From a virus, in IMG/VR virus record IMGVR_UViG_3300042338_000041, positions 1 to 45,916 of that record: a DNA stretch of 45,916 nucleotides. One strand, written 5' to 3'. Under the pieces are notes generated by a model. The model had not been told where the DNA came from and searched no databases. It was given only the letters and a program-made list of their open reading frames with translations. Shown piece by piece: positions 1-36,359 of the stretch (position 1 is the stretch's first letter; each line of letters opens with the position of its first letter). The position numbers were made by a program, and so were the translations under genes.

Positions 1-3000
1 TACTTTAACTAATAGACCTATGTCAACTTTGGTATCTTTTAACATTACAATATTAGCTAAAGCATCTTCTTTATTTTGCCATCTTACAATATCTTCAGCT
101 GGAGTATTATCTCCATCTAGTTTATTGAATAATGGTAGACCGTCTTTTAAAATAGCCATTCGCATTTCATCTGTAATAGGTAGATAAGGTTGTTTACCTA
201 TGCCATTAACTTCTTGTAGTTTTACAGAGGTTTTATATTTCTTGCCAATTTTATTAGCAACTTTTACCATTATGTTTTCATAGAACTCTAGATAACCAGT
301 AGCACCAAACAACATAGTCCCACCTTCTTCAGATGGTTTTATAACAAAAGGTTCAAATACATTATCACGACTACTATCTGTAATCTCTTTAGCTTTTGCT
401 TTACCTACATAATTATGCAGTTCATTTGCAGAAATAGCATCGAAGTTTCGTTTATTACCAGATTTTTCATCAATAGTTATATCGTAAGAATCAGTAAAAC
501 CACTAGCAAAACTTTGTGTTTTAGTTACAGAAATTTCAGAAACATTATCAATTATAATTTTGTTATAACGATCAGCTTGTTGTTGTCCTGTAGTCCAAGC
601 AACACCATCAAAGCCATGCTCTACAGCATACTTTAACATGCGTTTGAATATCAAACCACCCCATGCTTCTGATGATTTAAAAGGAGCTAAAGGTAATAGA
701 TCTGGATCTATAAGATTAAGACCTTCATTTAATGCTGTTAAGTCAGCTAACTCTCTTGCTAAAGTACTTTCATATGTGAATAAAAAGTCTAATTCCTCAA
801 TATGCTGTTTATATGGTTTTACATTAGGTAAAACATCAGATGGCAATTTAGACATTAATTGTTGCTTTAAAAAGTATTTAACTAAAACCAAAGCATCCGC
901 TAAGTCTTTAGGTTCTTTTATTAGTTTTAATTCTAAATTCATTCCAGCTATTATATTGTCAACACTACTACTACCATAGCCGTATGCAAACGAAGAAGAA
1001 TATTTAAATAAAGGATGTTGACTTATATTAATAATGTTATTGCCCATACTATAAACAATATCTTTTGCTTTTGTCATTCCAGTAAGATCAAAATTACCTT
1101 CTGGAAATATAGCACCTACTCCAACTTCTTGTGAGCCATCAGCTATATCATATAAAATATGTGCAGTATAATCACTAAATGTATAGTTATTGTCAATAAG
1201 ATCAAAAGTTTTATTACGAATAACAATATAAACTGGTTGTGTTATATCAAATCCATACGCATCAATAGGTTGTTTAGATTTCCACGCTTTTTTAATTTCA
1301 TCAGCATTAAAAGAAAGCTCAACTAATATATTATACTTATCTAGTTGTTGTGTTTTAGTTGAAAATAATTTATCAGGTAGTTCAGTATTAGAAAGTTTTA
1401 CTTCATTATCCATAATTTTTTTTATATCAGGAACAATTGCACCTAATCTTTCACTAACTTCTTTTATTCTCTGTTCGTTGTTAACAAACTCTTCAGGTTT
1501 TTCTGGTGTATCTTTAGGACGATAACCTCTTTCGTTTCCTTTTTGATGCCAATCGCTTTGGAATTCTTCACCAAATAAAACTTTAAAGTTTTCTGGAGTA
1601 TATCTAGTATTAGCACGACCATGTACAACAACATTTGTTACTGGAGTGTTATTACCATGCCAGCCTCCTTCCCAATGTGTCATACCACTTTGTAATTCAA
1701 TATCAGGAAATCTAATTAAGAATTCTCTTTGATCTTCACCATTAGGTAAAACTAAAGTTTCGTGTTGATATTTATCCCAGATAGTATGACCACCGGGTAG
1801 TGGCTTTTCTATTGTTTCTCTATAAGGTGCAAATAAATCTAAGATAGCACTCTGAATATTTTCTGGTAATTTATCTAATTCAGTTTTAAGATATTCTTCA
1901 ACTTGATTAAAAACAGTATTATAAACCTGAGCGCGTAATTCTTTATTTCTAAAATAAGGATATAATTCAGGTTCTTCTCTCATTAATCTTTCTTTAGGTA
2001 AATTATTGCCCCATAAAAGTGATTCATTAGCCTTAATTACATTTTCAGCAGTTACTTTACCATATCTAGATTCAGGTATTATTTCTTCAGGATAGAAAGT
2101 TGTAGCTTGCTCTTTACTAGTTACAAATTCAATATTATCTTTACTTGAATTAATTAGATTACCATCTTTTAATTTTACATATTCCATACCACCAAAGACT
2201 TCTGACTTTTCAATATTAGCTGCAATAAACTCTTTAATGGCTGCAATAAGAAGCGGCCAATTATCTTTATCTGTTATTTCTGCTTGTTTTTCTAAAGCGT
2301 ATTCTCCTAGCTTTTTAAAAAACAAAGGATCTCTAAGTGTTTTAGAAACAGGAATAACGCTAGAAGGAAATACAATTGTTTTGTAAGTTTTACCGCCGCT
2401 ACTAGTAACTGAATCAGTTATTGGAAGTGTATCTGTTTTAATAAAATCGTGTACTAAAACTCTTGAAACATTTTTCGTAGAATGAACTATTGTTGTTTCC
2501 GAGCCTTTAATAACTTCTTCTATTTTAACAGGTTTAATAATAGAAATAAGTGTATTTAAATCTACTTTAGCATCTTCAGGTAATGCATCCATATATTCTT
2601 TTAGACCAGTCCATTCAATCTCTTCTTGTTTAATACTACCTTTAACCAACAAAGCAGCAAGTTGTTGCTTTGTCATTGTTCTTTGTGGATTAGTCTTTAT
2701 TGTTTCAACAAGACTAGAATAGAATGTAGACAACATCAATTCTTTTTGTGGTGTTGTGTTAAACGAAATATCAAATAGTTTATTTGAAGGATCATCAAAG
2801 CCTAGAATAAAAGCGGCTCTTCCAAGAAGACCAGTAACACTAGCCATTTCACTTAAACCATTTTTCTCTAATCTATCTCTAACCAAATCTAAAATAGAAT
2901 TATTAAAGTATTCATTTGAGCTAACAGTCTGTAGCAAGTTTGCTCTGTCTTCAACAGACATAAGATCTTTATTAGTAAAAGAAACAAAATCATACTTAGG

Positions 3001-6000
3001 ATCTAATACAGGTTTTGCTTTACTACCAAAGACAGTCTTATCAAATAGAGGATCTGAGGCAACTTCAAACAAACGCTTACCTGTAGTAACTAAGTAAGCA
3101 TAGTCATACTTACCTTCAGGAATCTTTTCTTTTTTTGCGTATTGTTCAAACACATCAAGGATCTTAAGTGAGCGTTCTTCATAAGTAGCTGGAATAGCTC
3201 CCATGTTTCTTCGCTCAGCGCTGATTGAGAAGAACTGTTCTTTAAAGTATTTTAGTCTTTCTTCGGTAGTCATGTTAATGAACTTATCGTAGTCTTTAGC
3301 TGACTCAAAGAAATACATTACTTTATAAAGAAGAGAGTTAGTCTGTGTCTTTTTATATTCAGAGTAGGCTTCAACAAACATATTAAAATGTTTGCCTATT
3401 CTTCCACCAGAATCAATTGCAGATAGCCCTTGGCTTTTAACTATAGTCATAGCAGCTATCATAGCTGGATCAAAGTATTGACCATTCATCAAGAATTCAT
3501 ACTCACCTCTAGTAAGCATGTACTTGTCATTGATTCCTTTTTTATGGATTATTGTAGCAAACTCACGCGCATTAGTAGCAAACTTAGTATAGCCACCAGT
3601 TAACTGTGCAGATCTTGCAAAGACTTCATTTAACTCATGGACAGATAATGTTTGATCTGCCATTTGTTTATTGATGTTCGTAATTTCTTTTACAAGAGCA
3701 CTAGCAGTATCATAAAACTCAGAACTATTTAAAATCCTAGTTGCGACTAGAACTGCTTTCTGAATATCTAATAGAATAGATTTAGTCCAAGAGACATCTA
3801 TTGGATTCATCTGTTGTATTATTGTTTCAGCTTCTGTTAATAATACTTTTGAAAAAGTCTGTACAAAAAACTCTTCAGCATTTATTAAATGATAAGTACT
3901 TAAGAATCTTTCGTTTAACATAGGATCATCTAGCTTTAAGGTAGATTTAAAACCCTTGTCTTGAACAAGAGCCATACCAAAAGATGAAACAGCTTTGTTG
4001 TATAACTTAAGATTTGATAAATAGATATTACCTGTAGCTCTTGATTTAAAATAAGCGTGACCTATCTCATGTAGGATAGATCTAATGCGCTGATTTGATC
4101 TTGCTTTTGGAGATAGGAAATAACCAAAGTTTGCATTAAGTGTAATCTTCTTCTTATCATATTCCCATTTAGCAACAGTAGAAGAATCGCTTACTATTGA
4201 CTTTGTTCCAGTAACTTCGTCTGTCTTTACTGTTGTCATTTTCTCTACACCAAACTCAAGGAATGGAACATCACTAAAGTTTAGATGAACAACAGAAGCA
4301 AATAGAAGAATACGATCTTCGCTTGTAAGCATGGAGTTAGTTACAAGACTGTCAACGTAGTCTGCAAACTTTTTAGCGGAGTCTTTGTTACCTGAAACAA
4401 TAGAAACAAAAGCATTTGATATATCTGCTTTGTTATCATTTAGATATTTAATCTTAGCTACTCTATCTTTATCAACCTTTGCAATATTAATTGCGTTTCT
4501 AATCTGCATTGATAGAGCATTAAAAATAGTTTCTTTGCGTTCCTTAGCTCCAGCAATATCTCTTACGGCATTCTCAGTTGTTTCACTGATTTCACCAGTA
4601 AGCTTTGCTTCTAAAATAGCAGCATCAACAACATCAGAAGCTTCTGTTGGAATACCAGCTTTGACAGTCGCTTCTCTTTCTGGAGAGGTTGCAGCAGATT
4701 CAATAGCTTCAAGTAACTTATGAGCTGCTTCTTCTGCTGCTACTTTTCTTTCAGCTGCTGGCTTTGCTGTGTCTCTTGCTTCCTTAATTAGATCAGGAAT
4801 ATTACGCTGAGATCTCTTTTTTAATCCTTCTAGTTCTGCCTTAAGTGCCTTATAACGATCTGAACCTAGACGCTTACGAAGTCTAAAGAACTCTCCCTTG
4901 CGTTGTCTTTCTAGTTCTTCATAGACACGCTCTCGTTCTTTTGGTAGACCAACAGCTTCTGTTTCCACCTTCTTGGCATCTTCTAGAAACTTCTTACCAG
5001 CAAACAAGACACGCATCTTATCAGATACTGACATTTGATCAAAGACTTCACCAGACTCAATAAATCTTTCAGAGCCTTCATTATTAGTACGACGAGCAAA
5101 CTCAGTCATTACTTCATGTATATTTCTAAAGACACGATTAGGCGCTGCTCTAGCAATATATTCTGCTGTAGTTTCATTCTCATATCGGCGTGTGCCTACA
5201 TCTTCTGGTGTTGATCTAGCTACTTCAGGAGAATTCAAAGCTTCTCTTGTTTCAACACGATCAACTCTTGCTTCAGTTTCGGTTGCCATTTTTTCTGCAG
5301 TAATATCAGTATTTTCAATTACTGCTTCTTTAGCTAGCTTTTCTGGAACTGGAGCATCAATGATTGGCTTTTCGGGCTTCTTCATAAGACCAGAAATATT
5401 ATCAATTGTATTACCTAGTGGAGTTCCTTCAAGGGTAAGACGCTTATCCAATGAGTTTCTAAGCCCACGACCAGCATCAATCTCTACGCCTTGCACTCTG
5501 TTTCTAACAGCACCAACACCACTGCGTAACAAGCCACCACCTAGACCAAACACACCACCAAACGCCAAGCCTTCTTCTAATGCTGTTGTAGCAATCAAAG
5601 AAGCATTATAATCAGTGAGTGCGTATGGGTTGGCATATAGAGTTGCAGCACCAAAGGCAATTTCTCTTTGCTGTCTAGCATACTCAGCTAAGCCACCTTG
5701 TACTGCTCCGAATGTAAACGCAGCAGCAGCTCCACGCAGCAAACCAAAGTTACTTACATAACTAGGCATAATGCCAAGTGGTAGTTTATAAAGTGTTTCA
5801 GTTGTGTAAGCAGTTGCCTTTAAAGCCTTACCAGCAACAGATGCAGAATCATAGACACGCTTTAAGCGCATAAACAAAGATGTCCCACCTAAAGCAGTGG
5901 CTGTTGCTTCTGCTGCCATAACACCACCAGCTAAACCAGCGGCGGTTCCTACTCCCGGAACAAGAGATCCAATGGCTGTTGTAATACCAGCTAATGCCAA

Positions 6001-6936
6001 CTCAGCACCAATACTTGGAATAGTATCAGGACTATTAATCATACCTCCAACAAGACCATCTCGGAATAAACGAACATAGTCTAGTGTTGTTGGTTTGTAT
6101 GTTCCAATTCTTTTTTGAATGTCAGTAACATTTAGCTGATGCATGATACGAATCATTGCATGGTCAGCATTTGGAGAATCACTTACAAAAGAAGAATCAA
6201 TACCATTCTCTAATAGATATTGATTTACAATTGGATTTGAAAACTTACTTGAAAACCAATTATTTGGTTCAAAGTTTGGGTCTTCTCTTGCCATAATCTT
6301 TTCAATATCTTTTGTATCTCCAGCTAATTCTGTATCAGAGAATGAACTAGTAATTCCAAACAAATCTTGAGCGACAAATTGATCGAACCAGTTAAAGCCT
6401 AGCTTTTCATCAGCTTTGCTTTGTGCTTCTGCATACAAAAGCTTTGTTGAAATATCTCTAATTTGTTTCTGTCTATCAGTAAGTTCGTCATAAGACAAAC
6501 CACTAAGATCCTGTAACTGCTCGGCTTGAAGCATCATGTCTAGATTTTTTCTATCGACATCTAATGCTTCTGCGGTAAGCTCGCTATCCCCATAGCGCAT
6601 TGGGGATAGCGGAGCCTTACCGATTAATTGTCGCCATGCAGCACCCTTAGTAGGATCATTAGCAATACCAAGAAGACCGTCTGATACGCCAGTGAGATTT
6701 CCTTCTAATGAGCCTAAAGCCTGAGTCAAAGCATAAAACTGATTATAGGTTTCGACCTTCTTAATGTCACCCTTCACATATGAAAGAGGATCAGTAAGAC
6801 GCGCTGGGTCTAAAAATTCTAAATTATCTCCGTCATAAGCAGCTAATACTTGGGCTGGTCTATAAGCATTTAGTTGGAGTAAACCAGCTGATGGTTTCTC
6901 CGAACCTATAGGAAATCCTTCTGAGTAATTTAACAT
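1..6936 (-). CDS. Giant polyvalent internal-virion-like protein, C-terminus beyond window
   Basis: The frame opens at an ATG at 6936, preceded by an AAGGA ribosome site seven bases upstream. Every line I checked is open and the frame is unstopped at base 1, giving at least 2312 residues. Seen: a Gly/Ala-rich hydrophobic stretch at about residues 313-352 and more Gly/Ala-rich segments up to about 490; a Lys/Glu-rich helical stretch in the middle; HEIGH at 956-960 followed by NAEEFF at 1019-1024, a gluzincin-like layout; EEFQSDWHQKG near 1790-1800; and AWTTGQQQADRY at 2113-2124. The last two resemble motifs recurring in phage and mobile-element large polyvalent proteins (family knowledge, not searched). 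It is the last gene of an operon of gp14-like and other large proteins, so I infer an ejected virion protein with protease and effector domains. No single function can be named. Confidence 0.85.
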   Translation of the reverse strand, partial: MLNYSEGFPIGSEKPSAGLLQLNAYRPAQVLAAYDGDNLEFLDPARLTDPLSYVKGDIKKVETYNQFYALTQALGSLEGNLTGVSDGLLGIANDPTKGAAWRQLIGKAPLSPMRYGDSELTAEALDVDRKNLDMMLQAEQLQDLSGLSYDELTDRQKQIRDISTKLLYAEAQSKADEKLGFNWFDQFVAQDLFGITSSFSDTELAGDTKDIEKIMAREDPNFEPNNWFSSKFSNPIVNQYLLENGIDSSFVSDSPNADHAMIRIMHQLNVTDIQKRIGTYKPTTLDYVRLFRDGLVGGMINSPDTIPSIGAELALAGITTAIGSLVPGVGTAAGLAGGVMAAEATATALGGTSLFMRLKRVYDSASVAGKALKATAYTTETLYKLPLGIMPSYVSNFGLLRGAAAAFTFGAVQGGLAEYARQQREIAFGAATLYANPYALTDYNASLIATTALEEGLAFGGVFGLGGGLLRSGVGAVRNRVQGVEIDAGRGLRNSLDKRLTLEGTPLGNTIDNISGLMKKPEKPIIDAPVPEKLAKEAVIENTDITAEKMATETEARVDRVETREALNSPEVARSTPEDVGTRRYENETTAEYIARAAPNRVFRNIHEVMTEFARRTNNEGSERFIESGEVFDQMSVSDKMRVLFAGKKFLEDAKKVETEAVGLPKERERVYEELERQRKGEFFRLRKRLGSDRYKALKAELEGLKKRSQRNIPDLIKEARDTAKPAAERKVAAEEAAHKLLEAIESAATSPEREATVKAGIPTEASDVVDAAILEAKLTGEISETTENAVRDIAGAKERKETIFNALSMQIRNAINIAKVDKDRVAKIKYLNDNKADISNAFVSIVSGNKDSAKKFADYVDSLVTNSMLTSEDRILLFASVVHLNFSDVPFLEFGVEKMTTVKTDEVTGTKSIVSDSSTVAKWEYDKKKITLNANFGYFLSPKARSNQRIRSILHEIGHAYFKSRATGNIYLSNLKLYNKAVSSFGMALVQDKGFKSTLKLDDPMLNERFLSTYHLINAEEFFVQTFSKVLLTEAETIIQQMNPIDVSWTKSILLDIQKAVLVATRILNSSEFYDTASALVKEITNINKQMADQTLSVHELNEVFARSAQLTGGYTKFATNAREFATIIHKKGINDKYMLTRGEYEFLMNGQYFDPAMIAAMTIVKSQGLSAIDSGGRIGKHFNMFVEAYSEYKKTQTNSLLYKVMYFFESAKDYDKFINMTTEERLKYFKEQFFSISAERRNMGAIPATYEERSLKILDVFEQYAKKEKIPEGKYDYAYLVTTGKRLFEVASDPLFDKTVFGSKAKPVLDPKYDFVSFTNKDLMSVEDRANLLQTVSSNEYFNNSILDLVRDRLEKNGLSEMASVTGLLGRAAFILGFDDPSNKLFDISFNTTPQKELMLSTFYSSLVETIKTNPQRTMTKQQLAALLVKGSIKQEEIEWTGLKEYMDALPEDAKVDLNTLISIIKPVKIEEVIKGSETTIVHSTKNVSRVLVHDFIKTDTLPITDSVTSSGGKTYKTIVFPSSVIPVSKTLRDPLFFKKLGEYALEKQAEITDKDNWPLLIAAIKEFIAANIEKSEVFGGMEYVKLKDGNLINSSKDNIEFVTSKEQATTFYPEEIIPESRYGKVTAENVIKANESLLWGNNLPKERLMREEPELYPYFRNKELRAQVYNTVFNQVEEYLKTELDKLPENIQSAILDLFAPYRETIEKPLPGGHTIWDKYQHETLVLPNGEDQREFLIRFPDIELQSGMTHWEGGWHGNNTPVTNVVVHGRANTRYTPENFKVLFGEEFQSDWHQKGNERGYRPKDTPEKPEEFVNNEQRIKEVSERLGAIVPDIKKIMDNEVKLSNTELPDKLFSTKTQQLDKYNILVELSFNADEIKKAWKSKQPIDAYGFDITQPVYIVIRNKTFDLIDNNYTFSDYTAHILYDIADGSQEVGVGAIFPEGNFDLTGMTKAKDIVYSMGNNIINISQHPLFKYSSSFAYGYGSSSVDNIIAGMNLELKLIKEPKDLADALVLVKYFLKQQLMSKLPSDVLPNVKPYKQHIEELDFLFTYESTLARELADLTALNEGLNLIDPDLLPLAPFKSSEAWGGLIFKRMLKYAVEHGFDGVAWTTGQQQADRYNKIIIDNVSEISVTKTQSFASGFTDSYDITIDEKSGNKRNFDAISANELHNYVGKAKAKEITDSSRDNVFEPFVIKPSEEGGTMLFGATGYLEFYENIMVKVANKIGKKYKTSVKLQEVNGIGKQPYLPITDEMRMAILKDGLPLFNKLDGDNTPAEDIVRWQNKEDALANIVMLKDTKVDIGLLVKV

Positions 6937-6972: not shown

Positions 6973-9900
6973 TTATAGCTGTAGCATTGCTGCTATAGCT
7001 TCAATTCGTGTTTGTTTAGTTGATCTATTAGTTTTACTCATATACCCATCAGGATATAGAGTCATTTGAAAGTATTTTCTTTTGATATTTACAAGTTTAC
7101 TTGGATCTTTAATCGCTTCTAAAATACCATCAGTATTTGTTATTTTTACATTTCTTAAAGAATAAGCTTGTAAGATTTCGTCTTTAAGTTTAATTTCTCT
7201 TAGTTCATCTAGAGTAAATTCATTTGGATTAAGCTGTCCAATAACTTCATTCATTGTCTTAGCTGCTTCTTCTTTAGTTGGTTTATTCCAATCTAACGCA
7301 CCATTATTTTTCCGAATAGTTTGAGTATTGTTTGGTTGTTTACCAGCAATAACTCTAAGTTGATATTCTAGTTCTGGTTTTGTTAGTGGAGAATCTTGAA
7401 TTGTTTTCCAAGATTGTTCACTTAAACCAAAAGAAGACTCAGCATTATAGGGATTGTTTGAGCTTTTAATATAATGAACTACATTAAAAGTTTGTTCTGG
7501 AATATTCCATACTGTTCTTCCTGTTGATCTACGAATTACAGATAATTCGTCAGTTCCAAAAAGAGAGTTCAACCAATCTTGTGGATCAGCATCTATATTA
7601 TTTTCTCTAAAGATTTCTATATCTCGCTTGTTTGTATCCACAAAACTAGAATAAACACCACGAACAAAACCTTCAGTACCAGCAATAACAGTAGGAGCTG
7701 CTGCTAATTCAGGCATTACATTAGGACTAGAAGGTGTTCTTTCTTTGATTGTTTCTTCTATACCTTGCCCAATATAACCCTGATCTCTTCCTTGAATTGC
7801 AATTCTAGCTCTAAGAGGTAGGGTTGAAGAGTGTCCGGGTAGGAAATATTCACTAGGAATTTCTTCTGGATTATCTGGAAAACTTCCAGTGTCTGTATAT
7901 AACTGAGTCCAGTTAATATATCTAAAGTCAGGATTATTTATAAGATCCTTGCTATACGCATATTTCATAAAGTCTTGCTGGAATGTAGCAAGTTTTTCCT
8001 GAGAAATTGTAGAAGGCTTTGCTAAATTTTCAAGAGCTTCAGTAGATATGTTTGGAATAGGCTGCGTATAAAAAATTGATTTAGCTGCTTTTGCTTTTTT
8101 TTGCTTGGCTTTTAAACCAGTTAATTCTGATGAATCTGCAGCAGTCGCGGAATCTATAATAAGACGGTAGTCTTTATTACTTTCTTCAGGACGAAGCATA
8201 TAATACTTACCACTCTTATAATATAGATTCAACCCATTAGCAAGATTAGTCTCAACACCAGTAATGAACTTCTCACTGTTTGGCGAATAAAGAACTAAAC
8301 CTTTATTATCTCCTCTTTGAACAACAAAATCAGTTGAGGAAGATTTAGTAGCTCTTTCCATATTAGTATTTCTACCAAAGTCTACTTGAGAATTATCTTG
8401 ATATACACGCATAGCATTAAAAACATAACCAAGAAATTCTACATTAGTTTTTGCGCCGTTAGCAACTGCTTTGTCAAACAGCTGCTTTAAGTTAGCGTCA
8501 GTAAACAATGCTTTATTTTCATCATAGGTTTGAGTACCATCAGCATCTCTTGCAATTTCCCAAGCTAAGTTTTTAGATTTCTTTAACTGTGAATCTGACA
8601 TAACAATATCATGGAATGCTGTATTGTTTTGAGCAAAGAATGCTTTAGCATCTTCAAAGGTAGTTAAAGGACTATTTACATTAGCAAGAATAGCGGATCT
8701 AGTTGGTAGATAAGGTTCATTAACAGCGTAAATAACTTGATCTGCTTCCATTGGTCCAAAATTAGGGGCTGATTCAGAATCAAAAGGAACAAAAGTATAA
8801 GGATATATACCTCGTTCGGCTTCTAAATACTTAGACATTCCTTTTTCAAGGCTTAGTCTATCACCGCCACTAGCATCGCTTTCTTGTGGAATATACAATA
8901 GTGGTGTTCCATCAGCAGTCATTGGAGTAATAGCGCCTAGTTGTCGTGATCCTTTTGGTGTAATTACTTCTATGTAATCTGTACCAGAAGCTCCAGTTAA
9001 TTTTGTAATTTTAATGGGACGGCCTCCTCTTGGAGTTCCCATAAAATTATACATAGTTTGGCTATAATTAAAAGACGCATCAAACCAAGGAATTGCACCT
9101 GTACTAGAAGTAATTGGTAAATCATCAAAGACTTGCTTTGCTGCTACTAATCTAGCTTCAAATGCTGGAGTATATCCCTCAGCAAATACAATACCATTCT
9201 TACCTTTTGATGTTCGTTTTTCCATTGCAGTTGGAGAAGAAGCAATAGTAAAGCGTAGTAAATCAAAACCAGTAATAGAAGTTTGAATTCTAACTCCATT
9301 CTTATCTCTGGTTGTATTTACAGCGCCATCAAGCAAGGCTTCAAAAACTTCAGTATCAACTTGTGGGTTGATTTGCTTTGCAAAATTTAAAGCACTGCTT
9401 TTAAAATCTCTATCAGCAGTCATAGTATTAAGCCAGTTATTCCCAAACATATGGGCTTTAATCAAAGCTTTATCTTTTTCTACTGGGTCTTTTAACAGTT
9501 CCTTTTTTTCTTTAGGCAAGCCAGCAAGCATAGGAGATTTATCCAAAGATGCTTTTATGTTTTCCATATAAGACATGTTAGGAGCATACAGAATAAGAGG
9601 CATGCCTGTATTTGGATTATTAGTTACAATGTAACCTTCTCTTCTTACTTGTTCATCAAGTAAAGTTTCAATTGCTGTTTTTCTAGCTTCACTGTCAGCA
9701 CCAAATAAACCGGGATTACTTTCTAATGTAGCAGAAACTCTGGCAAGTATAGGAACAAGCGCTGGATTTTCTGCCAATAAAGAAGAAGCTGAAATATTTG
9801 GAGTCTCATCTATTAGATTACCTGCTTTAGCAGTTAACTCAAGACTACCTTCTTCAATATCTGCTCCAAACTTTTTTAGTACAGAATAGGTTACACCAAC

Positions 9901-11220
9901 TAATTCTTCAAACTTAACCACATCTTGTGGATTTTGGGAAGCATTAAAGATTGTGGTTCCGGCTCTAAGCTGTTGTATTCTTTTAAAGGTATCTTTTAAA
10001 GCATCTCTCTTTAAACCAGTAATCTGACCTAGTTGCGCTGGATCAAATTTATTTTTAACATGTAAGCGCATCATAGATAGTTTGAGTTTTTGTCCTTCAT
10101 CAAGACCATCAATTCTATCTATTGCGTTTTCTGCTAAGTGATCTGGAACATTAGCCAAAAGTGTTGAAACATAAGTGGCTGTACCAATGTTTGGTTGTTC
10201 GGTTTCAACCGTATCTTTAATTAATCTTTCTATATCTGCAGTAGGTTGACCAGTAGCATTCATAACAGCACTATATGGACCATAACCAAAGTTATCATAG
10301 TTTATTAGTTTTTCAAAATCTTCAATTGATTTTAAACTATCAATATACTGTGGTTGAAAATACCACTTACCATCTGCTCGTTTAATAACGGGGGAATTTA
10401 CTTCTCCTGTTACTGGATCTACTGTTGTTATTTGTGTCCAATTTCCTGCCATATCTTTTTCAAAACCGATATCAGGAATTGAAGGATTTTCTTGATTAGG
10501 TGGAAGAGGAAAAGCGCCTAGAAATACTTGTGGTTGAATCTTTGCATCTCTAACTCCAGAACCATTCTTCCAAGCAGCAAAGTTTTCTTCTTCTTTTACG
10601 ACACCATTAATAACCCGCTGAGTTTCATATAGTAACTTGTTTGCAAATCTATCAATATCTCTTAAAGAGTTTCTAGATGATAAAGCAAGCTCTTGATATT
10701 TTAAACCTAGTTTTGTTACATCTAAATCTTCAGCAAAATATTTTTCATCGCCTAAAACTTTAATAGCATCGGTTCTGAAATCTTCTTTAGTTTGCTTAAT
10801 CTGAGTAACTAAATCATTAATTACTTTGCTATTGGCTGGTCTTTTTTCTTTATCTGCATTGTAGATTTCAGTACTCTGTTGAAGATAAAAGTCATCTAAA
10901 GTACTTTGGTACTTATCTTTAAGTTCTACTACACCGTTTCTTTTTGAATCAATAAGGTAGTCTAATGCAGTTTCAAAAGTCTGAGATGCCATTTGAAAAG
11001 CATTCTGACCTAGGTTATACCAATAAATATCAGCGTTATCAATTCCAATTTGCTGTTGTGCAAACTGTACTTGACCTTCTTGATAGACATTAGCAACTTC
11101 TGGAGGAGTGAAGCCAGCCTGTGGACCTGTCTCAAATACTGTTTGTTCAATGGGATCTAAATTCTTAGAACCACCAAGTAAATTCTGTAGTTCTTTACTT
11201 ATATTATTCTGTTTTGCCAT
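6973..11220 (-). CDS. Very large internal virion-like protein, 1415 aa, function unknown
   Basis: A single open frame of 1415 residues begins at an ATG 17 bases inside the preceding gene's 3' end and stops 36 bases before the giant gene. I recognise no family. The first 250 residues look helical and coiled-coil-like, rich in Lys, Glu and Gln; the rest is mixed, without signal peptide or obvious membrane segments. I found no soluble lytic transglycosylase signature of the kind at the N-terminus of T7 gp16. Size and place between a gp14-like gene and the giant gene suggest a counterpart of the T7 gp15/gp16 ejection proteins; this rests on context. An alternative is a phage-specific tail or virion protein unrelated to T7. 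Confidence 0.85.
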   Translation of the reverse strand: MAKQNNISKELQNLLGGSKNLDPIEQTVFETGPQAGFTPPEVANVYQEGQVQFAQQQIGIDNADIYWYNLGQNAFQMASQTFETALDYLIDSKRNGVVELKDKYQSTLDDFYLQQSTEIYNADKEKRPANSKVINDLVTQIKQTKEDFRTDAIKVLGDEKYFAEDLDVTKLGLKYQELALSSRNSLRDIDRFANKLLYETQRVINGVVKEEENFAAWKNGSGVRDAKIQPQVFLGAFPLPPNQENPSIPDIGFEKDMAGNWTQITTVDPVTGEVNSPVIKRADGKWYFQPQYIDSLKSIEDFEKLINYDNFGYGPYSAVMNATGQPTADIERLIKDTVETEQPNIGTATYVSTLLANVPDHLAENAIDRIDGLDEGQKLKLSMMRLHVKNKFDPAQLGQITGLKRDALKDTFKRIQQLRAGTTIFNASQNPQDVVKFEELVGVTYSVLKKFGADIEEGSLELTAKAGNLIDETPNISASSLLAENPALVPILARVSATLESNPGLFGADSEARKTAIETLLDEQVRREGYIVTNNPNTGMPLILYAPNMSYMENIKASLDKSPMLAGLPKEKKELLKDPVEKDKALIKAHMFGNNWLNTMTADRDFKSSALNFAKQINPQVDTEVFEALLDGAVNTTRDKNGVRIQTSITGFDLLRFTIASSPTAMEKRTSKGKNGIVFAEGYTPAFEARLVAAKQVFDDLPITSSTGAIPWFDASFNYSQTMYNFMGTPRGGRPIKITKLTGASGTDYIEVITPKGSRQLGAITPMTADGTPLLYIPQESDASGGDRLSLEKGMSKYLEAERGIYPYTFVPFDSESAPNFGPMEADQVIYAVNEPYLPTRSAILANVNSPLTTFEDAKAFFAQNNTAFHDIVMSDSQLKKSKNLAWEIARDADGTQTYDENKALFTDANLKQLFDKAVANGAKTNVEFLGYVFNAMRVYQDNSQVDFGRNTNMERATKSSSTDFVVQRGDNKGLVLYSPNSEKFITGVETNLANGLNLYYKSGKYYMLRPEESNKDYRLIIDSATAADSSELTGLKAKQKKAKAAKSIFYTQPIPNISTEALENLAKPSTISQEKLATFQQDFMKYAYSKDLINNPDFRYINWTQLYTDTGSFPDNPEEIPSEYFLPGHSSTLPLRARIAIQGRDQGYIGQGIEETIKERTPSSPNVMPELAAAPTVIAGTEGFVRGVYSSFVDTNKRDIEIFRENNIDADPQDWLNSLFGTDELSVIRRSTGRTVWNIPEQTFNVVHYIKSSNNPYNAESSFGLSEQSWKTIQDSPLTKPELEYQLRVIAGKQPNNTQTIRKNNGALDWNKPTKEEAAKTMNEVIGQLNPNEFTLDELREIKLKDEILQAYSLRNVKITNTDGILEAIKDPSKLVNIKRKYFQMTLYPDGYMSKTNRSTKQTRIEAIAAMLQL

Positions 11221-12256
11221 TTAAATCTCCGAACATGTTTGGATACTTTGTCATTGCTGTGTAAATACTTTCAGCAAGTTCTTGTTCATTAGTAATACGC
11301 TTGCTAGCAATCTCTCCCTTAAGACCACGCATAATCTGATCTTGTGGGCTGCTTTCAGCGTTAATTGAAAAAGCCTCACCCCAACGATCAAGAGTATAAA
11401 AGCCTTGCTCAAGAAGTTTAGTAGACTCCATAGCAGCTTGTCTTTCTTGCATTGAGATGACTGAGCGTTGTGCTGATAGTTTCATATCAACAGCTTGCTT
11501 GATTGGATTGATTGCGCTGTCTCTAACTAAGACTTGCTCAGCAAATGATGGCGCACCAAACTGATCTTTTGGAAATACTTGTTGTCTATTTTCAACAGCA
11601 AAGCCGGGAATAAAACCTGTATTCTGTCCATAGATTCCAATGCGACCATTAACAACATTAGCAATATCAAACAAATTTAATTGCTCTAGTCTTACAAAGT
11701 CAGCAGTATGCTGTTCAACAGAAACATCTGGATCAAGATCATTCTTCAAAATAAAGTTATTTACTTTATCTGATAATGACTTACTGTAGACTTGATTAGC
11801 TTTGCTTAGATTAGCATTGGCAACTGTTGTTGATAACTTTGCCAACTCAGGTTCCAATACGGATCTTGCCCATGTTGGTGAGTTGTCAATACGATCTCTC
11901 AAAAAGAATTCTTTATTGGAGACACCATTAATTAAATTGGTTTCGTTTAAAGTTACATTAACAAAGTCAGACTGTGCGCCTTCTAATCCCCGTGGATGCA
12001 TGTTCTCATAGGTTTTCCAATATGTATTTCTAGCGTTATTGGACATACCATCAATATTAATATTCTTCTTCCAGTAGTTAAAACGACTGGCTGGATTATT
12101 TGGATACATGTTGGATGCGACTTCAGCAACTTGCTTGATCTTTGCGACATCCTGTATATCAATCATATCTTGTTCTTTGGCTTCTGGTATTGTTGTCCCT
12201 GATACGGACTCAGAAGCAATCTTCTGCAAAGAAGACATAAGATCTTTCTTAGCCAT
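11204..12256 (-). CDS. Putative internal virion protein, 350 aa
   Basis: The gene starts at an ATG that overlaps the stop of the gp14-like gene in a TAATG arrangement and overlaps the next gene by 17 bases, so the three are probably translated together. The product is hydrophilic, with a Ser/Thr-rich N-terminal tail and mostly helix-forming composition. No signal peptide, membrane segment or catalytic motif is visible. I do not recognise the family. Its place second in the internal virion operon suggests an ejection or core protein, taking part of the role of T7 gp15 although it is much shorter than that protein (about 750 residues). Confidence 0.8.
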   Translation of the reverse strand: MAKKDLMSSLQKIASESVSGTTIPEAKEQDMIDIQDVAKIKQVAEVASNMYPNNPASRFNYWKKNINIDGMSNNARNTYWKTYENMHPRGLEGAQSDFVNVTLNETNLINGVSNKEFFLRDRIDNSPTWARSVLEPELAKLSTTVANANLSKANQVYSKSLSDKVNNFILKNDLDPDVSVEQHTADFVRLEQLNLFDIANVVNGRIGIYGQNTGFIPGFAVENRQQVFPKDQFGAPSFAEQVLVRDSAINPIKQAVDMKLSAQRSVISMQERQAAMESTKLLEQGFYTLDRWGEAFSINAESSPQDQIMRGLKGEIASKRITNEQELAESIYTAMTKYPNMFGDLNGKTE

Positions 12257-13077
12257 TAACTACCTCCAATACTCATTGTTGGGGTGTAGGAAGTACTACC
12301 CATTCCTGTGTAAGCTGGCATAGATGCTCCTGCATTATAAGCACTAAAAGCTGTATTCATCATACCCATAGTCCAATTAGCAAGACCACCAGCCATACCG
12401 CCTCCAGTAGATGGTGGCGAGCCACCACCACTTTGACCGGGGAAACCATACTTAGCACCAGCACTAACAAATGCAGAGGCTCCAGATAGACCAGCCTGAA
12501 TTAAACCAGTTGTCAGAGCAGTGCTTGAGTTGTCTACAATACCACCCTTAGCTGGAATAAATACGCCTAGATCTGGGGCAATAGACGAAACTCTTTGAGA
12601 AAGTCGTGCTTGCTGTTGTGTCACAATATCTTGATATGCACTTCTATGGTTGAGTTTTAAAGCAGCCATATTATTACCAAGCGATTCAATGTTCTGTCTA
12701 AACAAAGCTCTGGCTGTTCCACTTGTTGGATTCATTCCTCGGCCTGTCGTTGCTGCCAAGAACTGTGCGTTTACCTGAGCAGTTTGTTTGCTTAGTGTAC
12801 TCTTTTGATTTGAAAAAGACTTATCTAAATAAAGCTCGGCCATTGCTCGTTCTTTATTTGCAGCCTTTTCAATCTGAGTATTTCTTTCAAGATTGGCTTG
12901 AAACTGTCGCATTGTATTACGATCTTGTGCTTGTTTCTGCCATTGATTCTGGAAGTTAGCATTACGCTGTTGAATTTCAGCAGCCATTGCCTGAGACTCA
13001 GCCTGACTTGATTGCCCAAAAGCGCCCATAATACCGGAAGCTAAAGACATTACGCCCATTCCGATTGCTACTGGCAT
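12256..13077 (-). CDS. Internal virion protein, T7 gp14-like
   Basis: The 273-residue product has a hydrophobic Gly/Met/Ala-rich N-terminus (about residues 1-20), a long Gln/Asn-rich helical middle section and a Gly/Ser-rich C-terminus. This layout is typical of gp14-type internal virion proteins of T7-like phages, which leave the head during infection and help build the DNA-ejection channel. It begins ten bases inside the sulfotransferase-like gene and hands over to the 350-residue gene by TAATG. T7 gp14 is about 196 residues, so this one is longer. The assignment rests on composition and position, not on a specific active-site motif. Confidence 0.65.
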   Translation of the reverse strand: MPVAIGMGVMSLASGIMGAFGQSSQAESQAMAAEIQQRNANFQNQWQKQAQDRNTMRQFQANLERNTQIEKAANKERAMAELYLDKSFSNQKSTLSKQTAQVNAQFLAATTGRGMNPTSGTARALFRQNIESLGNNMAALKLNHRSAYQDIVTQQQARLSQRVSSIAPDLGVFIPAKGGIVDNSSTALTTGLIQAGLSGASAFVSAGAKYGFPGQSGGGSPPSTGGGMAGGLANWTMGMMNTAFSAYNAGASMPAYTGMGSTSYTPTMSIGGS

Positions 13078-13565
13078 GATAATCCTCTTTCTATAAATGA
13101 GAGAATACTATTTATGGAAGAATCTAAGTCTTCAGTATACACTCTCATAACTTGTTTATTGTTCAGTGATGATAACCACTGCTCTGTATTTTCTATGAAT
13201 GGAAGTAGTAAAGAAGATGGTGAATCTAAAGATAGTAACTGGTTATTTAGTTTGCACTCGTCTTTAAATACTTTGTAAAGACTGGCAACTTGAGCTACTT
13301 TATCCTTACGCTCAAGAGCAACAACACCAGCTATTTTATTAACATCAATGTCTAAATAAGAAGGATACCATAGCTTAACCAAACAGTTATTGATTGTTGG
13401 ATCGTATACAATAGCATCCCAATATCCATCTACATTGTGTTGTTCGACTGTAAAGTTAGGTATAAACTTATAACCATGTATTGGTATTCCTTTTTGTTTT
13501 GCTTGCTGCATAACAAATGATGTTCCTGTCCGTGGGCCTAAGCCTGTTACAATAACTATACTCAT
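13068..13565 (-). CDS. Sulfotransferase-like P-loop protein
   Basis: The 165-residue product starts with a beta strand and the loop GLGPRTGTSF (residues 8-17), which matches the 5'-phosphosulfate-binding loop of PAPS-dependent sulfotransferases (G-x-x-R-[ST]-G-T-[ST]). Further on, an Arg followed by Ser in LERKDKVAQVASLY fits the 3'-phosphate-binding element, and RVYTEDLDSS fits the 'YEDL' strand seen near the end of that family. Known family members transfer sulfate from PAPS to carbohydrates, lipids or protein. It is coupled to the large terminase gene by an ATGA overlap and runs into the gp14-like gene. At 165 residues it is short for a complete sulfotransferase, so it may be a minimal or divergent member. 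The substrate cannot be read from the sequence; another P-loop kinase-type role is the main alternative. Confidence 0.6.
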   Translation of the reverse strand: MSIVIVTGLGPRTGTSFVMQQAKQKGIPIHGYKFIPNFTVEQHNVDGYWDAIVYDPTINNCLVKLWYPSYLDIDVNKIAGVVALERKDKVAQVASLYKVFKDECKLNNQLLSLDSPSSLLLPFIENTEQWLSSLNNKQVMRVYTEDLDSSINSILSFIERGLSCQ

Positions 13566-15247
13566 CTTCGTTTACGGTTTAAAATAGATTTACCAAACTT
13601 ATTTTCTTTTGGTTCTTTCCCATTCAGTAGGACAGCACCAGAGATTCTATCACCTAGAATACCTAGGGATCTCTTGTTGCTCATCCAATCTTTTACTTTA
13701 TTCTTATAATCTTCTTCTTGTCTATTGATCATTTCTCTTTCGGGATCAACCGCAAGAGCTTCAGTCCAATAGGATACAGCAGCAGCGAGTACATCTACAC
13801 GGTCATCGTGCTTTAGTGCGCCACGCTTTTCCTGCATTCTAGTAATTTGAATTTGATTATCTTTATTTTTTAATACTTCGGTATCCATAACTAATCTATG
13901 CTGTGCCATAATTGGCTCTAGTATATTAATTATTCTATGTTCCTTTTGTCCTGATACTTTGAATTCTTCAATACCAACAGCACCACAATTCTGCATTACG
14001 ACAGGTGTAAGGATCTTGCCAAACATACCATCACCGTAGTTAGACTCATACCTTACGAGATTAATGTCGTACTGATTAATCAACTTACAGATTTGTTTAA
14101 GTGTTGGTGTATCATAGCCACCCTGAATACCTAGTAGTTCATGGATGACAACATAACCATGAGCGAACGATGCAACGCATACCGCAGTTTCATCCGCGCC
14201 TCTACCAGATGGGTCGATAAACAATACAGTCTGTGAATACGGGACAAACTTAGGTTCAATGTGCATTGGTTCATATACAAGATCTCCTTTCATACCAAAA
14301 GAAGAAACTCTTCTATTTACCACGCTCTTAGCATGAACAACTTTTACCGGAAAGACTTCTGGATCGACATCAATAACGATGATGTCTTCCAATCTGAGGG
14401 GGTATTTCTTGTTGTCAGCTGAAGTCGTTTTGAGTTTATAGTGGAGTTCAAAATTTGTAGGACCAATCTTTGCTTCAAGTTCAGCAAGTTTCTCATCCGA
14501 GAATCGCTCTGGCTGTGTCGAACAACCCGGCTCCATGCCCAACTGCAACACATAGGAATCAACATCTTCAACATCCTCTGCATTATCCAAGTCTGGCATG
14601 ACTGCCGGAAACTTGATAATCTTGTAGATACCACCTAGTTTGTTATATACAGAGTCTTTGGATTGTGGTGTACCAAGGAATCTGATAGAGCAGTCTTCAC
14701 CTTTGTTCTTGACATTCTCAAGCTCAAGGCAACGCTCCCATAATTTTTCTCTAGCCTGTGGGCTATCTGAGTTCTCAGGAATCTCTACATCGTCACCAAT
14801 GATCTTGTCTGCGTGTAGACCTGTGATCTGGGAAGTAATACCTCTAGCGGTAACGGATAGATCCTGAGTGAATTTAGTTCTACTGTTTACATTAAAACCA
14901 AAAGCACTATCCTTATCGGACTCCTTTGGTTCTAGGTTTGCCATGTATGGAACCAGAGTTAAAATGTTTCTGGCCTGAGATACAAACTTAATTGCCTTAT
15001 CCGCTGTAGCAGAAAGTACAAGTATTGTTGTATTGGGATTCCGTAGTAGAATCCAAGATACATAACAAGCTGTGATTACACTCTTACCAGCACCACGCCC
15101 TGCCTGTAGGATATGATCACTTGGACCTTCCTGTAGACGGTTAGCTATGGCATACTGGAGAGGGGTGGGTTCACCTAAACCCAAATACTTAAAACAAAAA
15201 TAAAGGTGATTGCGGAAGTCGTCTATGACCTCTGGGGGTGGCTTCAT
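13562..15247 (-). CDS. Terminase large subunit (T7 gp19-like DNA packaging motor)
   Basis: A 561-residue packaging ATPase and nuclease, close to the length of T7 gp19 (586). The ATPase domain shows a Walker A loop GRGAGKS at residues 50-56 and a Walker B region ending in GDD in KIIGDDVEI. The C-terminal nuclease domain shows FIDPSGRGADETA with its metal-binding Asp and a later DDRVDVLAAA segment, as expected for the RNase H-like fold that cuts concatemers. The start at 15247 has a near-perfect AGGAGG ribosome site. It works with the small subunit upstream and the portal. A 119-base structured gap separates it from the small subunit gene. Confidence 0.95.
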   Translation of the reverse strand: MKPPPEVIDDFRNHLYFCFKYLGLGEPTPLQYAIANRLQEGPSDHILQAGRGAGKSVITACYVSWILLRNPNTTILVLSATADKAIKFVSQARNILTLVPYMANLEPKESDKDSAFGFNVNSRTKFTQDLSVTARGITSQITGLHADKIIGDDVEIPENSDSPQAREKLWERCLELENVKNKGEDCSIRFLGTPQSKDSVYNKLGGIYKIIKFPAVMPDLDNAEDVEDVDSYVLQLGMEPGCSTQPERFSDEKLAELEAKIGPTNFELHYKLKTTSADNKKYPLRLEDIIVIDVDPEVFPVKVVHAKSVVNRRVSSFGMKGDLVYEPMHIEPKFVPYSQTVLFIDPSGRGADETAVCVASFAHGYVVIHELLGIQGGYDTPTLKQICKLINQYDINLVRYESNYGDGMFGKILTPVVMQNCGAVGIEEFKVSGQKEHRIINILEPIMAQHRLVMDTEVLKNKDNQIQITRMQEKRGALKHDDRVDVLAAAVSYWTEALAVDPEREMINRQEEDYKNKVKDWMSNKRSLGILGDRISGAVLLNGKEPKENKFGKSILNRKRR

Positions 15248-27480: not shown

Positions 27481-29295
27481 TTATCCTGTGGTGAGGGCTT
27501 GGAGGGTGGCGTTTGGAAGGTTGGTTGGCCACACCTTCACCTGCCGAATCCAGCCATACGGTCGCAGAGCTGGTGACGCATCAATGTAAAACTTCAGCGC
27601 GTTGATTCCGCTGAGTGTCCCCGCCGCTTGTGCCGGATTGCTGACGGTTCCGCCGTTTCGACAAGCAGCCGTGTTGCTTGTTCCCGGAGCAAACGCGATT
27701 GCCGTCTTGAATCGCTGCGATGCACCAGTTGGAGATACCGTAATAGAACTGACTCCATCCACAATTGCCACATCCCGACGCAAAGACACGCGATTGGAGG
27801 ATGTTTGGCTTCCCAAGCCGTTTCCAAGTTCAATTCCACCGTTTGCATTTGCCAATGCGGAGTGCGTGATGTCTGCAAACAGCGTTCCAGTCTGCGTGGA
27901 TGCGCTGTACCAAGACGAGAAGTTTGTCCCGTCCATATAGCAGGTATCCTCTGCCCTGCTCCCCTGACTTGCCCCGCTCGGGATGTACGAGGATGCGCCA
28001 GCACCCGCCTCAAGTTGTGCGCCCCAAATGTAGACACCGCTTCCGGTGGTTCCGGTGTATGAGGTAGTTGTCCCGTCCGTTGAAAGTCGGAATTGAACAT
28101 TGATGTTCGTCAGCGTTGGAGTTCGCACCACGATGCGATACCAGTTGTCCGGATATTTTGTGATCGCTGAAACACCAACAGCCGATTCTGAAACAACTGA
28201 TCCGCTACCGGAAAGGTTGAACATCCCGAATGCGCCGCTGCCGCCGTTATCAATGATTTGGATGTGCTGCCGTTCGGCAGCCTTCACAAATGCAGAGATC
28301 GTGTAGACGCTTGAAGTCAACGATGAGTAGACAATCAGCGGAGCGTGTAATCCAGCCGCGTTTGTTTCCTGAATTTTCACCACCGTGGTACTGATTCCCG
28401 CCGGATTGGTTGTCGTTACTGTTCCGCGAGTGGTATTTAGAGCCGAGAAATTCCAATTGTTTGCCGCGCCTGAAGTCTCAAATGACTCACTCCAGTAGAA
28501 CAGATTGCTCGCGCTTCCCTCAATCAGCAGCCCGCGAGGCGTGGGCGGCGTAGTGGTGGGGTCGTAGTCGAAGCGGGGGGCTTGGTAGACGGTCGTGGTC
28601 GTTCCGTAGTACGGCGATGCGGTTGTTCCGGCATTCATCTGCACGCCCCACATGAACAGCGTTGTTCCAGATGTTGGCGTTCCAGCCGTGTCCGGATAGA
28701 ACAGCAATGAACCACCGGAAACTGGAGCAGTCAGCACAATCTGGATCAGCGTCCAAGTGGTAGTCAGATTCGTAATCGAGAACAAGGTACTACCAGAAAT
28801 CGTCGCCGTTCCACCTGACACCACGGAACAGGTTCCCGTCTGGAAACTTACATTGAAGTATCCAACGTCAATCCTCGTGGCCGTACCTGCGCGGATCCAA
28901 AAGCGAATCGTGTGCGGCACTCCAGATGTAATGGTCGGGCTTTGAAAAACTGCGCCGTTTGCATTTCCAGCCGTCACTCTGGATGATGTTGGCCCACCGA
29001 TTGGGTTTGTTGTTGCAACATCGAGAACCTGTACAGTTCCTCCTTGAATAGTCCACGGTGACGTTTGCAGAGACTCGCTCTGTCGAATCAAGTTCGCATC
29101 GGCATACTGCACGTACCCCTGCGAGTTGATGAAGGTGGCGTTGGTGCTGCGTGTAAATGTTAGGCGTGGGTCAAGTATTCCTGTAGTAAAATCTAATGAC
29201 AAAGTAGAACCATCCCCACCTTCAGCTGGAAGCAAACGATTTCTTTGCGTTCTCCACTCAGGGGGATCTAAAGTCCAAGAACGAAATCTATGCAT
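27481..29295 (-). CDS. Head spike/fibre protein with tandem carbohydrate-binding-like domains
   Basis: A 604-residue product. After a short N-terminal piece it has LDFTTGILDPRLTFTRSTNA (about residues 34-53), the hallmark of proteins annotated as phage head spike fibre domain. Two related beta-sandwich modules follow: the first runs from NLIRQSESLQTSPW to FMWGVQMNAG and the second from NLFYWSESF to YIWGAQLEAG. A lectin-like C-terminal domain comes last. Likely role: binding host-surface or environmental glycans. Bases 27481 to about 29170 are strikingly GC-rich (sample lines 53-63% GC against about 35% next door), while the first 35 codons match the rest of the phage. This suggests a fibre acquired by recombination onto a native anchor. 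Confidence 0.78.
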   Translation of the reverse strand: MHRFRSWTLDPPEWRTQRNRLLPAEGGDGSTLSLDFTTGILDPRLTFTRSTNATFINSQGYVQYADANLIRQSESLQTSPWTIQGGTVQVLDVATTNPIGGPTSSRVTAGNANGAVFQSPTITSGVPHTIRFWIRAGTATRIDVGYFNVSFQTGTCSVVSGGTATISGSTLFSITNLTTTWTLIQIVLTAPVSGGSLLFYPDTAGTPTSGTTLFMWGVQMNAGTTASPYYGTTTTVYQAPRFDYDPTTTPPTPRGLLIEGSASNLFYWSESFETSGAANNWNFSALNTTRGTVTTTNPAGISTTVVKIQETNAAGLHAPLIVYSSLTSSVYTISAFVKAAERQHIQIIDNGGSGAFGMFNLSGSGSVVSESAVGVSAITKYPDNWYRIVVRTPTLTNINVQFRLSTDGTTTSYTGTTGSGVYIWGAQLEAGAGASSYIPSGASQGSRAEDTCYMDGTNFSSWYSASTQTGTLFADITHSALANANGGIELGNGLGSQTSSNRVSLRRDVAIVDGVSSITVSPTGASQRFKTAIAFAPGTSNTAACRNGGTVSNPAQAAGTLSGINALKFYIDASPALRPYGWIRQVKVWPTNLPNATLQALTTG

Positions 29296-33933: not shown

Positions 33934-35826
33934 TTATCCTTTAAGATCTATGATCTCACACGCACCAGCAGTGCATGCCATTGTATGAGAGGATGTTGTT
34001 GTATCTGTCTTTTCATAGAAAGATAGGTTATTGAAATCGACAGGAACCATTACATATGAATCATATGTTTCCTTAGTGATTGATTCAAACGGAGCCTGAG
34101 CATAGATATGATCAGATTTAGGTAGGAATGAGATACCAGAGATCTTATCAAAGTTCTCCCATACCCACTGACCTACTGGCATAAACTCACTATCGGAATA
34201 ATTAACAGTAATGCTTGGCTTATGCTGGCAGTAATACTCCTGATAGGCAAGCCACAGATTAAGGTGGTCGATTGCCTGTAGTTCATCTTGGGTAAGAGAA
34301 CCTGATGGAGCAGACTGAGCAAAGGTAAAGACAGCGGTTGAATCTGGATTCATTACGCAGTCTTCTACCATAACTTGTGCATCCCGCATTAGATGATAGA
34401 TAGGATCTTTCTTGTCGATACGAACTCTACGATAATAATGCTCAGCATATCGTGGATGTAGACCGCTGGCTGAATTAGCCAAGCATGAGGTAGTTCCCTC
34501 TGGCTTGATGCAAGTGATTGACTTGCTTGGGTTGACGCCCAGCTGTTTAGCCCAATCAAGGTTAGTCTTGATTGCGATCTCACGGAGATTCTCAAGAACA
34601 TGCTTGAGCTTTCCGTAACCATGAATGCCGGACATTAGCTTGTTATCAAAGATGCCTGTCATAGATACACCAAGTAGTCTCTCTTCTTCACAGTTCTTTG
34701 TCCATGAAGAATCTTCACGGGAAAGATAAGGGAAGTAAGTAAACATACTTTGGATTGTACCAATGATTGTAGCCATCTCAATCTTCTTAGCTAATGTCTC
34801 AGGTGTATCTGAAGCGCGGACTACAACGGTCGATAGGTTGCAGAACTGATTGGGTCTGAGAATAATCTCAGAGCAAGGGTTGGTCCCATAATAAATACTA
34901 TCATCACGACCAGCCTTGACTGCAATAGCCCTCATCGCATCACGGTTGCAGATACCGCGCTCTCCGCTGTGAGAATTGTACAGATCAGTCCACTCCTCTA
35001 GGAATTGTCCCATTGAAGGGCGACCATTGTACACAGCGGAATTATTGGCTAGGGCGCGGTGACCTGATGATTCCCACCAAGCACCACTCTTACATGTTGC
35101 CATCTCACGATCCGCGAGATCACTGAGAGAGATCATTGCTGAGCGGCGAACGCCACCAACGATGACTGACTGAGCAATCTTGCAGCAAATGTCGTGACAC
35201 TCAAGCGGAGTGAGTCTTCGTCCCTGAGCCTTATAAAATGTCTGAACAATAAAGCGGAATACTTCCTCAAGCGGGGCAGGACCACTTGCGCGTCCTCCGA
35301 AAGTCTTAAGTTTTTCTCCAGCCTTGCGTACCTTACTAGTGTCCCACTTTAAGTGAACACCTTTGTATAGATTGTCGATTAGTTGATGGAGCGAATCACA
35401 CCAGCCCTCACGACTATCTTCTACGAACATAACATTGTCAAACATCTTATGGATGGTTGGAATAGTTGGCATCTTGTCTGTGCATCTACGCTCAACAGTA
35501 TAGCCAACACCAGTACCACACATAAGAATGTACATTAGATTAGAGAAAGACTTTGATGAGTCGATCTCTAAATATGAGCAGTTGTATAATGCGGTATGAT
35601 CGCGGTCCAAAGCTGGACCTGCGGTCATAAGCCCACGCATTGAGGGTAGAACCTCAAGATTTAGAATTGCATCACGAACATCTGGTCGTGAAGCTAGGGC
35701 TGGAACCTTGGTTGTAAAGTAATTCCACCAACGATCCACGGTTTCATCCCAAGTTTCACGGCGAGATTCAGAATCCATCCATCGGCTATAGCGAGAGATG
35801 GCAATAAAGTTTTGAAATGTATCCAT
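33934..35826 (-). CDS. Ribonucleotide reductase, adenosylcobalamin-dependent (class II, monomeric type)
   Basis: A 630-residue enzyme reducing ribonucleoside triphosphates to dNTPs. Key residues line up with Lactobacillus leichmannii RTPR: Cys83 (first of the redox pair), Cys318 (thiyl radical) and Glu320 in NPCSEI, Cys329 eleven residues later in FCNL, and the C-terminal CTAGAC pair Cys618/Cys623 that recharges the active site. The spacing 318-329 equals 408-419 in RTPR. Class II enzymes need coenzyme B12 and no oxygen or second subunit, so the host must make or import cobalamin. It follows dUTPase by 20 bases and supplies phage DNA synthesis. No intein or split is seen. Confidence 0.93.
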   Translation of the reverse strand: MDTFQNFIAISRYSRWMDSESRRETWDETVDRWWNYFTTKVPALASRPDVRDAILNLEVLPSMRGLMTAGPALDRDHTALYNCSYLEIDSSKSFSNLMYILMCGTGVGYTVERRCTDKMPTIPTIHKMFDNVMFVEDSREGWCDSLHQLIDNLYKGVHLKWDTSKVRKAGEKLKTFGGRASGPAPLEEVFRFIVQTFYKAQGRRLTPLECHDICCKIAQSVIVGGVRRSAMISLSDLADREMATCKSGAWWESSGHRALANNSAVYNGRPSMGQFLEEWTDLYNSHSGERGICNRDAMRAIAVKAGRDDSIYYGTNPCSEIILRPNQFCNLSTVVVRASDTPETLAKKIEMATIIGTIQSMFTYFPYLSREDSSWTKNCEEERLLGVSMTGIFDNKLMSGIHGYGKLKHVLENLREIAIKTNLDWAKQLGVNPSKSITCIKPEGTTSCLANSASGLHPRYAEHYYRRVRIDKKDPIYHLMRDAQVMVEDCVMNPDSTAVFTFAQSAPSGSLTQDELQAIDHLNLWLAYQEYYCQHKPSITVNYSDSEFMPVGQWVWENFDKISGISFLPKSDHIYAQAPFESITKETYDSYVMVPVDFNNLSFYEKTDTTTSSHTMACTAGACEIIDLKG

Positions 35827-35846
35827 GTCTGTCCTTCCTTAGTTAG

Positions 35847-36359
35847 TTATAAACCTGTACTTCCAAAACCACCAGTTCCCCGCGCAGTCTCTGGAAGTTT
35901 ATCGACAGAGATGAATGGGAATTGAGTAACAGGTAGGAAGACAATCTGAGCAATACGATCACCAGTATTTAGTGTGACAACATCATAAGAGTTGTTTACC
36001 AAGGATACCATGATCTCACCACGATAATCACAATCAATAACACCCACAGAATTCTTGAGTGTAATACCCTTTGTAGCCAGACCAGAGCGTGGGAATATAA
36101 GACCCACGAATCCCTCTGGAATAGCAAGGGATACTCCAGTAGCAACCATCTGATTACTACCGGGATGCAGTACAATATCTAGAGCGCACTTAAGATCTGC
36201 ACCAGCAGCACCCTTGGTCTTATACTCAGGATTGCACTTAAGATCGTGGAGAACCATAGGGATACCCTCTGATCTATGGGTATAAGTAGAAGTATTGTAA
36301 TTATTATTATCAGCAAAGATAGCTGAGTTTGTATCAAAGCAAGTAACTTCAGTATTCAT
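35847..36359 (-). CDS. dut: dUTPase (deoxyuridine 5'-triphosphate nucleotidohydrolase)
   Basis: All five motifs of the trimeric dUTPase family are present: GAAGADLKC, PRSGLATKG, GVIDCDYRGEI, GDRIAQIV and the C-terminal ARGTGGFGSTGL. It hydrolyses dUTP to dUMP, keeping uracil out of DNA and feeding ThyX. About 34 residues precede the conserved core; the start at 36359 is kept because of a clear AGGAG ribosome site. The gene overlaps the exonuclease gene by 11 bases. Confidence 0.95.
   Translation of the reverse strand: MNTEVTCFDTNSAIFADNNNYNTSTYTHRSEGIPMVLHDLKCNPEYKTKGAAGADLKCALDIVLHPGSNQMVATGVSLAIPEGFVGLIFPRSGLATKGITLKNSVGVIDCDYRGEIMVSLVNNSYDVVTLNTGDRIAQIVFLPVTQFPFISVDKLPETARGTGGFGSTGL

Follow-up and report, generated by a model that had tools for sequence, protein, structure and literature searches.

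A compact sulfotransferase-like gene beside the terminase gene of T7-like phages

The gene and its neighborhood

We analyzed a virus record of 45,916 bases (the window) which, judging by its sequence, comes from a T7-like phage. PHROG matches in the window include a primase/helicase, a DNA polymerase, ribonucleotide reductase, a head-tail adaptor, the major head protein, and terminase. Directly after the gene for the large terminase subunit (TerL) is an open reading frame on the minus strand, which runs from an ATG start at 13565 down to 13068 and has 165 codons plus a stop (Table 1). We will call its product P0001.

A prediction from the sequence alone, which named no strand, had described P0001 as sulfotransferase-like, with GPRTGTSF resembling a PAPS-binding loop, a downstream Arg/Ser element, and a YEDL-like element in a protein of 165 residues. 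All of these are present: residues 8–17 are GLGPRTGTSF, ERKDKVAQVAS supplies both R86 and S95, and the YEDL-like segment follows. None of 5,921 background open reading frames has the three motifs in the same order and with the same spacing. The coupling to terminase was also described correctly: the start codon overlaps the TerL stop codon as ATGA (13565–13562). At its other end, the gene overlaps the start of the next open reading frame (at 13077) by 10 bases. Given this tight fit into the run of TerL and internal virion genes, late expression of P0001 is plausible.

Table 1. Positions of the gene, its motifs, and the adjoining genes in the window
Feature	Positions	Strand	Evidence or remarks
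P0001, sulfotransferase-like gene, 165 amino acids	13068..13565	-	Open frame; 41 distinct relatives
GLGPRTGTS, residues 8–16, PAPS-loop-like (5'-PSB) segment with invariant R12	13518..13544	-	
R86 to S95, 3'-phosphate-binding-like Arg/Ser segment	13281..13310	-	R-S spacing 9 (usual 8)
YTEDL, residues 143–147, resembling the YEDL/YEDM segment of sulfotransferases	13125..13139	-	
Terminase large subunit, overlapping the start of P0001 by ATGA	13562..15247	-	phrog_38, E = 2.4e-96
Next gene, internal-virion-protein-like (weak match)	12256..13077	-	phrog_805, E = 0.012; adjoins the P0001 homolog in relatives

The virion gene run continues on the minus strand with two very large open reading frames, which probably encode internal virion proteins: one of at least 2312 amino acids that runs past the left edge of the window (1–6936), and one of 1415 amino acids that lacks a PHROG match (6973–11220). 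Another structural gene on this strand (27481–29295) encodes a tail protein of 604 amino acids (phrog_5939, E = 9.6e-47) with a repeated, carbohydrate-binding-like look. Elsewhere on the minus strand are a nucleotide-metabolism set (33934–38273 and 43164–43820), with ribonucleotide reductase, dUTPase, a DNMK-like nucleotide kinase, and a Thy1-type thymidylate synthase, and a calcineurin-like metallophosphoesterase (45035–45691; PF00149, E = 2.9e-12).

Links from P0001 to known sulfotransferases

With P0001 itself as the query, searches of Pfam, PHROGs, NCBIfam, and the sequences of the PDB found no significant match, and tblastn against 50,697 annotated phage records gave no match (E up to 1). 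It does not reach the cutoff of Pfam's Sulfotransfer_1 or Sulfotransfer_3 model and is below detection by both. Its best PDB profile match is the sulfotransferase SULT1B1, which aligns at the right place with E = 0.17 only. Matches to forkhead proteins in the PDB (E = 0.3) are due to chance.

Iterated scans of IMG/VR yielded dozens of loci and 41 distinct full-length relatives. Fifteen positions are identical in all of them (V6, G8, G10, R12, G14, S16, N44, G47, K64, W66, R86, Q92, S95, T144, and L147). R12 always lies within GxGPRxG[TS]S, so the family has not lost the R-T-G-T loop of the original prediction: R-x-G-T/S-S is retained in 41 of 41. Residue 15, at the place of the Walker lysine, is always T or S and never K. 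Among close pairs dN/dS is about 0.1–0.2, so the family is under purifying selection.

We built a family profile from 21 core members and ran it against 6,027 open reading frames from the loci collected by that stage. It matches longer phage proteins (L083 at E = 2.9e-15, L089 at E = 2.9e-13, and L099 at E = 4e-10), while unrelated frames begin at E = 0.28. With 40 control profiles whose columns were shuffled, none of these three proteins was ever found at E < 10. L083 is above the Pfam cutoffs for both Sulfotransfer_1 (27.6 versus 22 bits) and Sulfotransfer_3 (29.4 versus 27 bits), and L089 is just under them. NCBIfam has no name for any of the bridging proteins.

Profile-profile comparisons with hhalign gave 99.2% for the family against the bridging proteins and 96.8% for the bridge against a Sulfotransfer_3 set from bacterial genomes. 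Since the latter is a local match over 37 columns, and comparing the family directly with the Sulfotransfer_3 set gave only 12%, the family assignment is a chain of links and not a single direct match. A better profile match to nucleotide kinases would have been a serious objection to the original prediction, but the sets for adenylate kinase, APS kinase, and AAA_33 gave at most 1.2% against the family or the bridge (at most 0.3% against the family), whereas sulfotransferase profiles are reached via the bridging proteins.

The family profile also matched, more weakly (E = 7e-4), part of a hypothetical protein encoded near an annotated sulfotransferase gene on a Thalassobaculum plasmid. This match is only suggestive, because one of the 40 shuffled profiles gave some open reading frame an E value of 0.0034. 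The protein (WP_322335118.1; NZ_CP139716.1, L208 2873–3670, minus strand) contains PRSGSSL and NPRGFWD segments that resemble those of the P0001 family. The same stretch encodes the annotated sulfotransferase, a PqqD-family protein, a lasso peptide B2 protein, and an asparagine-synthase-related protein. A search of genome contigs with the family confirmed no bacterial homolog.

The AlphaFold model of P0001 (from an alignment of 18 sequences) has a pLDDT of 89.4 and a pTM of 0.87, and it predicts a strand-loop-helix and a strand-turn-helix on a central sheet. Structural comparison gave a divided answer. Foldseek favors PAPS sulfotransferases, which make up most of its best PDB matches (best E = 0.003, none below 0.001) and the first sixteen matches for an earlier, poorer model. 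VIA-align instead favors NMP kinases: adenylate and guanylate kinases come first, with adenylate kinase (Z = 10.8) above the sulfotransferase Stf0 (Z = 9.3). Against BFVD, Foldseek found weak matches only, including sulfotransferases and one adenylate kinase. The two P-loop classes are not told apart by shape alone. Sequence does separate them, because P0001 has no Walker lysine and the genome has a DNMK-like kinase of its own.

Presence and absence at one site

At nearly all loci of the family, the gene begins at the stop codon of TerL, and the same virion genes come after it. The TerL proteins of these loci are down to about 50% identical to that of the window, and at the most distant loci the genes downstream are no longer recognized. 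L050 departs from this pattern, as no such TerL lies near its gene. Across 80 relatives of TerL, a count that includes many near-copy contigs, the gene is found at this spot in 48 and is absent from 27 that have enough sequence; the other 5 end too early. For several TerL proteins with 91–96% identity to that of the window, the internal virion gene comes directly after TerL, and the sulfotransferase-like gene is cleanly absent. No sulfotransferase is annotated after TerL in three cultured phages with related TerL proteins that we examined (Limnohabitans YIMV22061, Desulfovibrio ProddE, and Pelagibacter Eistla).

A quick TerL tree of 55 rows implies 9 changes of the trait, and 7 of these are forced by well-supported branches. 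By these sequence comparisons, the gene is accessory: it is dispensable, conserved where it is kept, and has been gained or lost at least 7 times at one site. Distances between the genes correlate with distances between the TerL proteins (Mantel r = 0.84), which is explained more simply by common descent and repeated loss; gains may have occurred alongside the losses. At L053 the gene and TerL trees disagree: the sulfotransferase-like gene (2835–3341) groups with the window's clade, while TerL groups with L248/L251. Recombination at this site is possible. A gene that is conserved across many uncultured T7-like phages is thus repeatedly gained or lost. Because the family is compact and conserved and keeps to one fixed site, and because closely related phages with and without the gene occur as natural pairs, its function is testable.

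The proposed role of P0001 and its alternatives

One review defines PAPS sulfotransferases by a PAPS loop that contains Lys or Arg, a Ser on the helix that binds the 3'-phosphate, and the architecture of the sheet (PMC11625862); another uses the same two residues and adds a base, His or Glu, located between the motifs (PMC6637879). In all 41 relatives, R12 provides the first residue and S95, preceded by R86, the second. Candidate bases between the motifs are D/E50 (41 of 41) and H43 (35 of 41). The Arg-Ser spacing is 9 in the P0001 family instead of the 8 of RXXXDXXXS. Sulfotransfer_3 and Sulfotransfer_1 proteins (PF13469 and PF00685), such as L083, share the PRSGSS/GPRTGTS loop, HNPxGYY/W[DE], and ERRDK..Q..S / ERKDK..Q..S with the family, but L083 is longer (about 216 amino acids) and P0001 is shorter in its middle and C-terminal parts. 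By eye, the Lys of DKxP in Sulfotransfer_3 proteins aligns to K64. In the cytosolic SULT1B1 and SULT1E1, the PAPS loop, the Arg/Ser 3'-phosphate segment, and the YEDL-like segment follow one another as they do in P0001, and there is a weak profile match. Cytosolic sulfotransferases also have a C-terminal region IV (GxxGxxK; PMC4199319), and P0001, which ends at residue 165, lacks this PAPS-binding motif; also by eye, its Trp66 is near the expected position of the catalytic His. Like P0001, Stf0 and the tyrosylprotein sulfotransferases carry Arg, not Lys, in the PAPS loop, and their core fold is similar. However, the P0001 family has no conserved equivalent of their Glu base at that distance (the usual position, about residue 32–33, is not conserved among the 41 relatives).

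Because of the profile chain, the invariant loop residues, the mostly sulfotransferase ranks from Foldseek, and the separate kinase in the genome, we assign P0001 to the PAPS-sulfotransferase superfamily, as part of a compact branch from phages that escapes current family models. This is the reading that the original prediction had proposed, and the profile chain via the bridging proteins and the loop kept in 41 of 41 relatives both support it. That P0001 is a compact PAPS-dependent sulfotransferase has, in our estimate, a probability of roughly 60%. We propose that the GPRTGTS loop (Arg12) would hold the 5'-phosphosulfate of PAPS, that Arg86 and Ser95 would hold its 3'-phosphate, that Lys64 would be close to the sulfate during transfer, and that the acceptor would be activated either by His43 or by an acidic residue, D/E50. 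Since R12 and S95 fit the definitions and D/E50 or H43 could be the base, while the spacing and region IV deviate, PAPS binding is likely and catalysis is plausible.

We also considered that P0001 might be a P-loop nucleotide or small-molecule kinase. The core fold is common to both classes, and the VIA-align ranking would fit. However, this seems very improbable given the T or S in place of the Walker lysine of GxxxxGK[ST] in every relative, the negligible scores of the kinase profiles, and the phage's separate DNMK-like kinase with GKARVGKT (37106–37837). A protein with the sulfotransferase fold might instead bind PAPS or PAP without transferring sulfate, and serve as a sponge for the cofactor, as a sensor, or in the structure or assembly of the virion. 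Such a role would suit a protein of only 165 amino acids that has no C-terminal PAPS-binding region, no base at the position used by TPST and Stf0, and a gene among virion genes. But K64 and the acidic residue 50 are kept in all relatives just as the binding residues are, which exceeds the needs of bare binding, and we consider the non-transferring role rather unlikely.

If P0001 is indeed a sulfotransferase, then its substrate is a matter of conjecture, with host glycans or virion parts as the candidates. The gene's place in the packaging and virion gene run leads us to conjecture that P0001 would act late, on a virion protein or on host surface material, and would pay off only against some hosts. 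Our tentative suggestion is that this very small PAPS-using enzyme may, at a late stage of infection, sulfate either virion proteins of the phage itself or the receptor on the host, so that its presence or absence would tune the host interaction between near-identical phages. The original prediction's more specific idea, that late sulfation of host surface glycans blocks superinfection or the re-adsorption of progeny, is improbable in our view. Repeated gain or loss at one site is what would be expected of a host-dependent function, and other sulfotransferases act on glycans and glycolipids, but a gene located among virion genes would fit a virion target equally well. Current family models miss short sulfotransferase-like phage proteins such as these. 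Phages of the OM43 type and others have been reported to carry Sulfotransfer_3 genes, whose role there was called unclear (PMC10580990); unlike P0001, those proteins have a recognized PF13469 domain.
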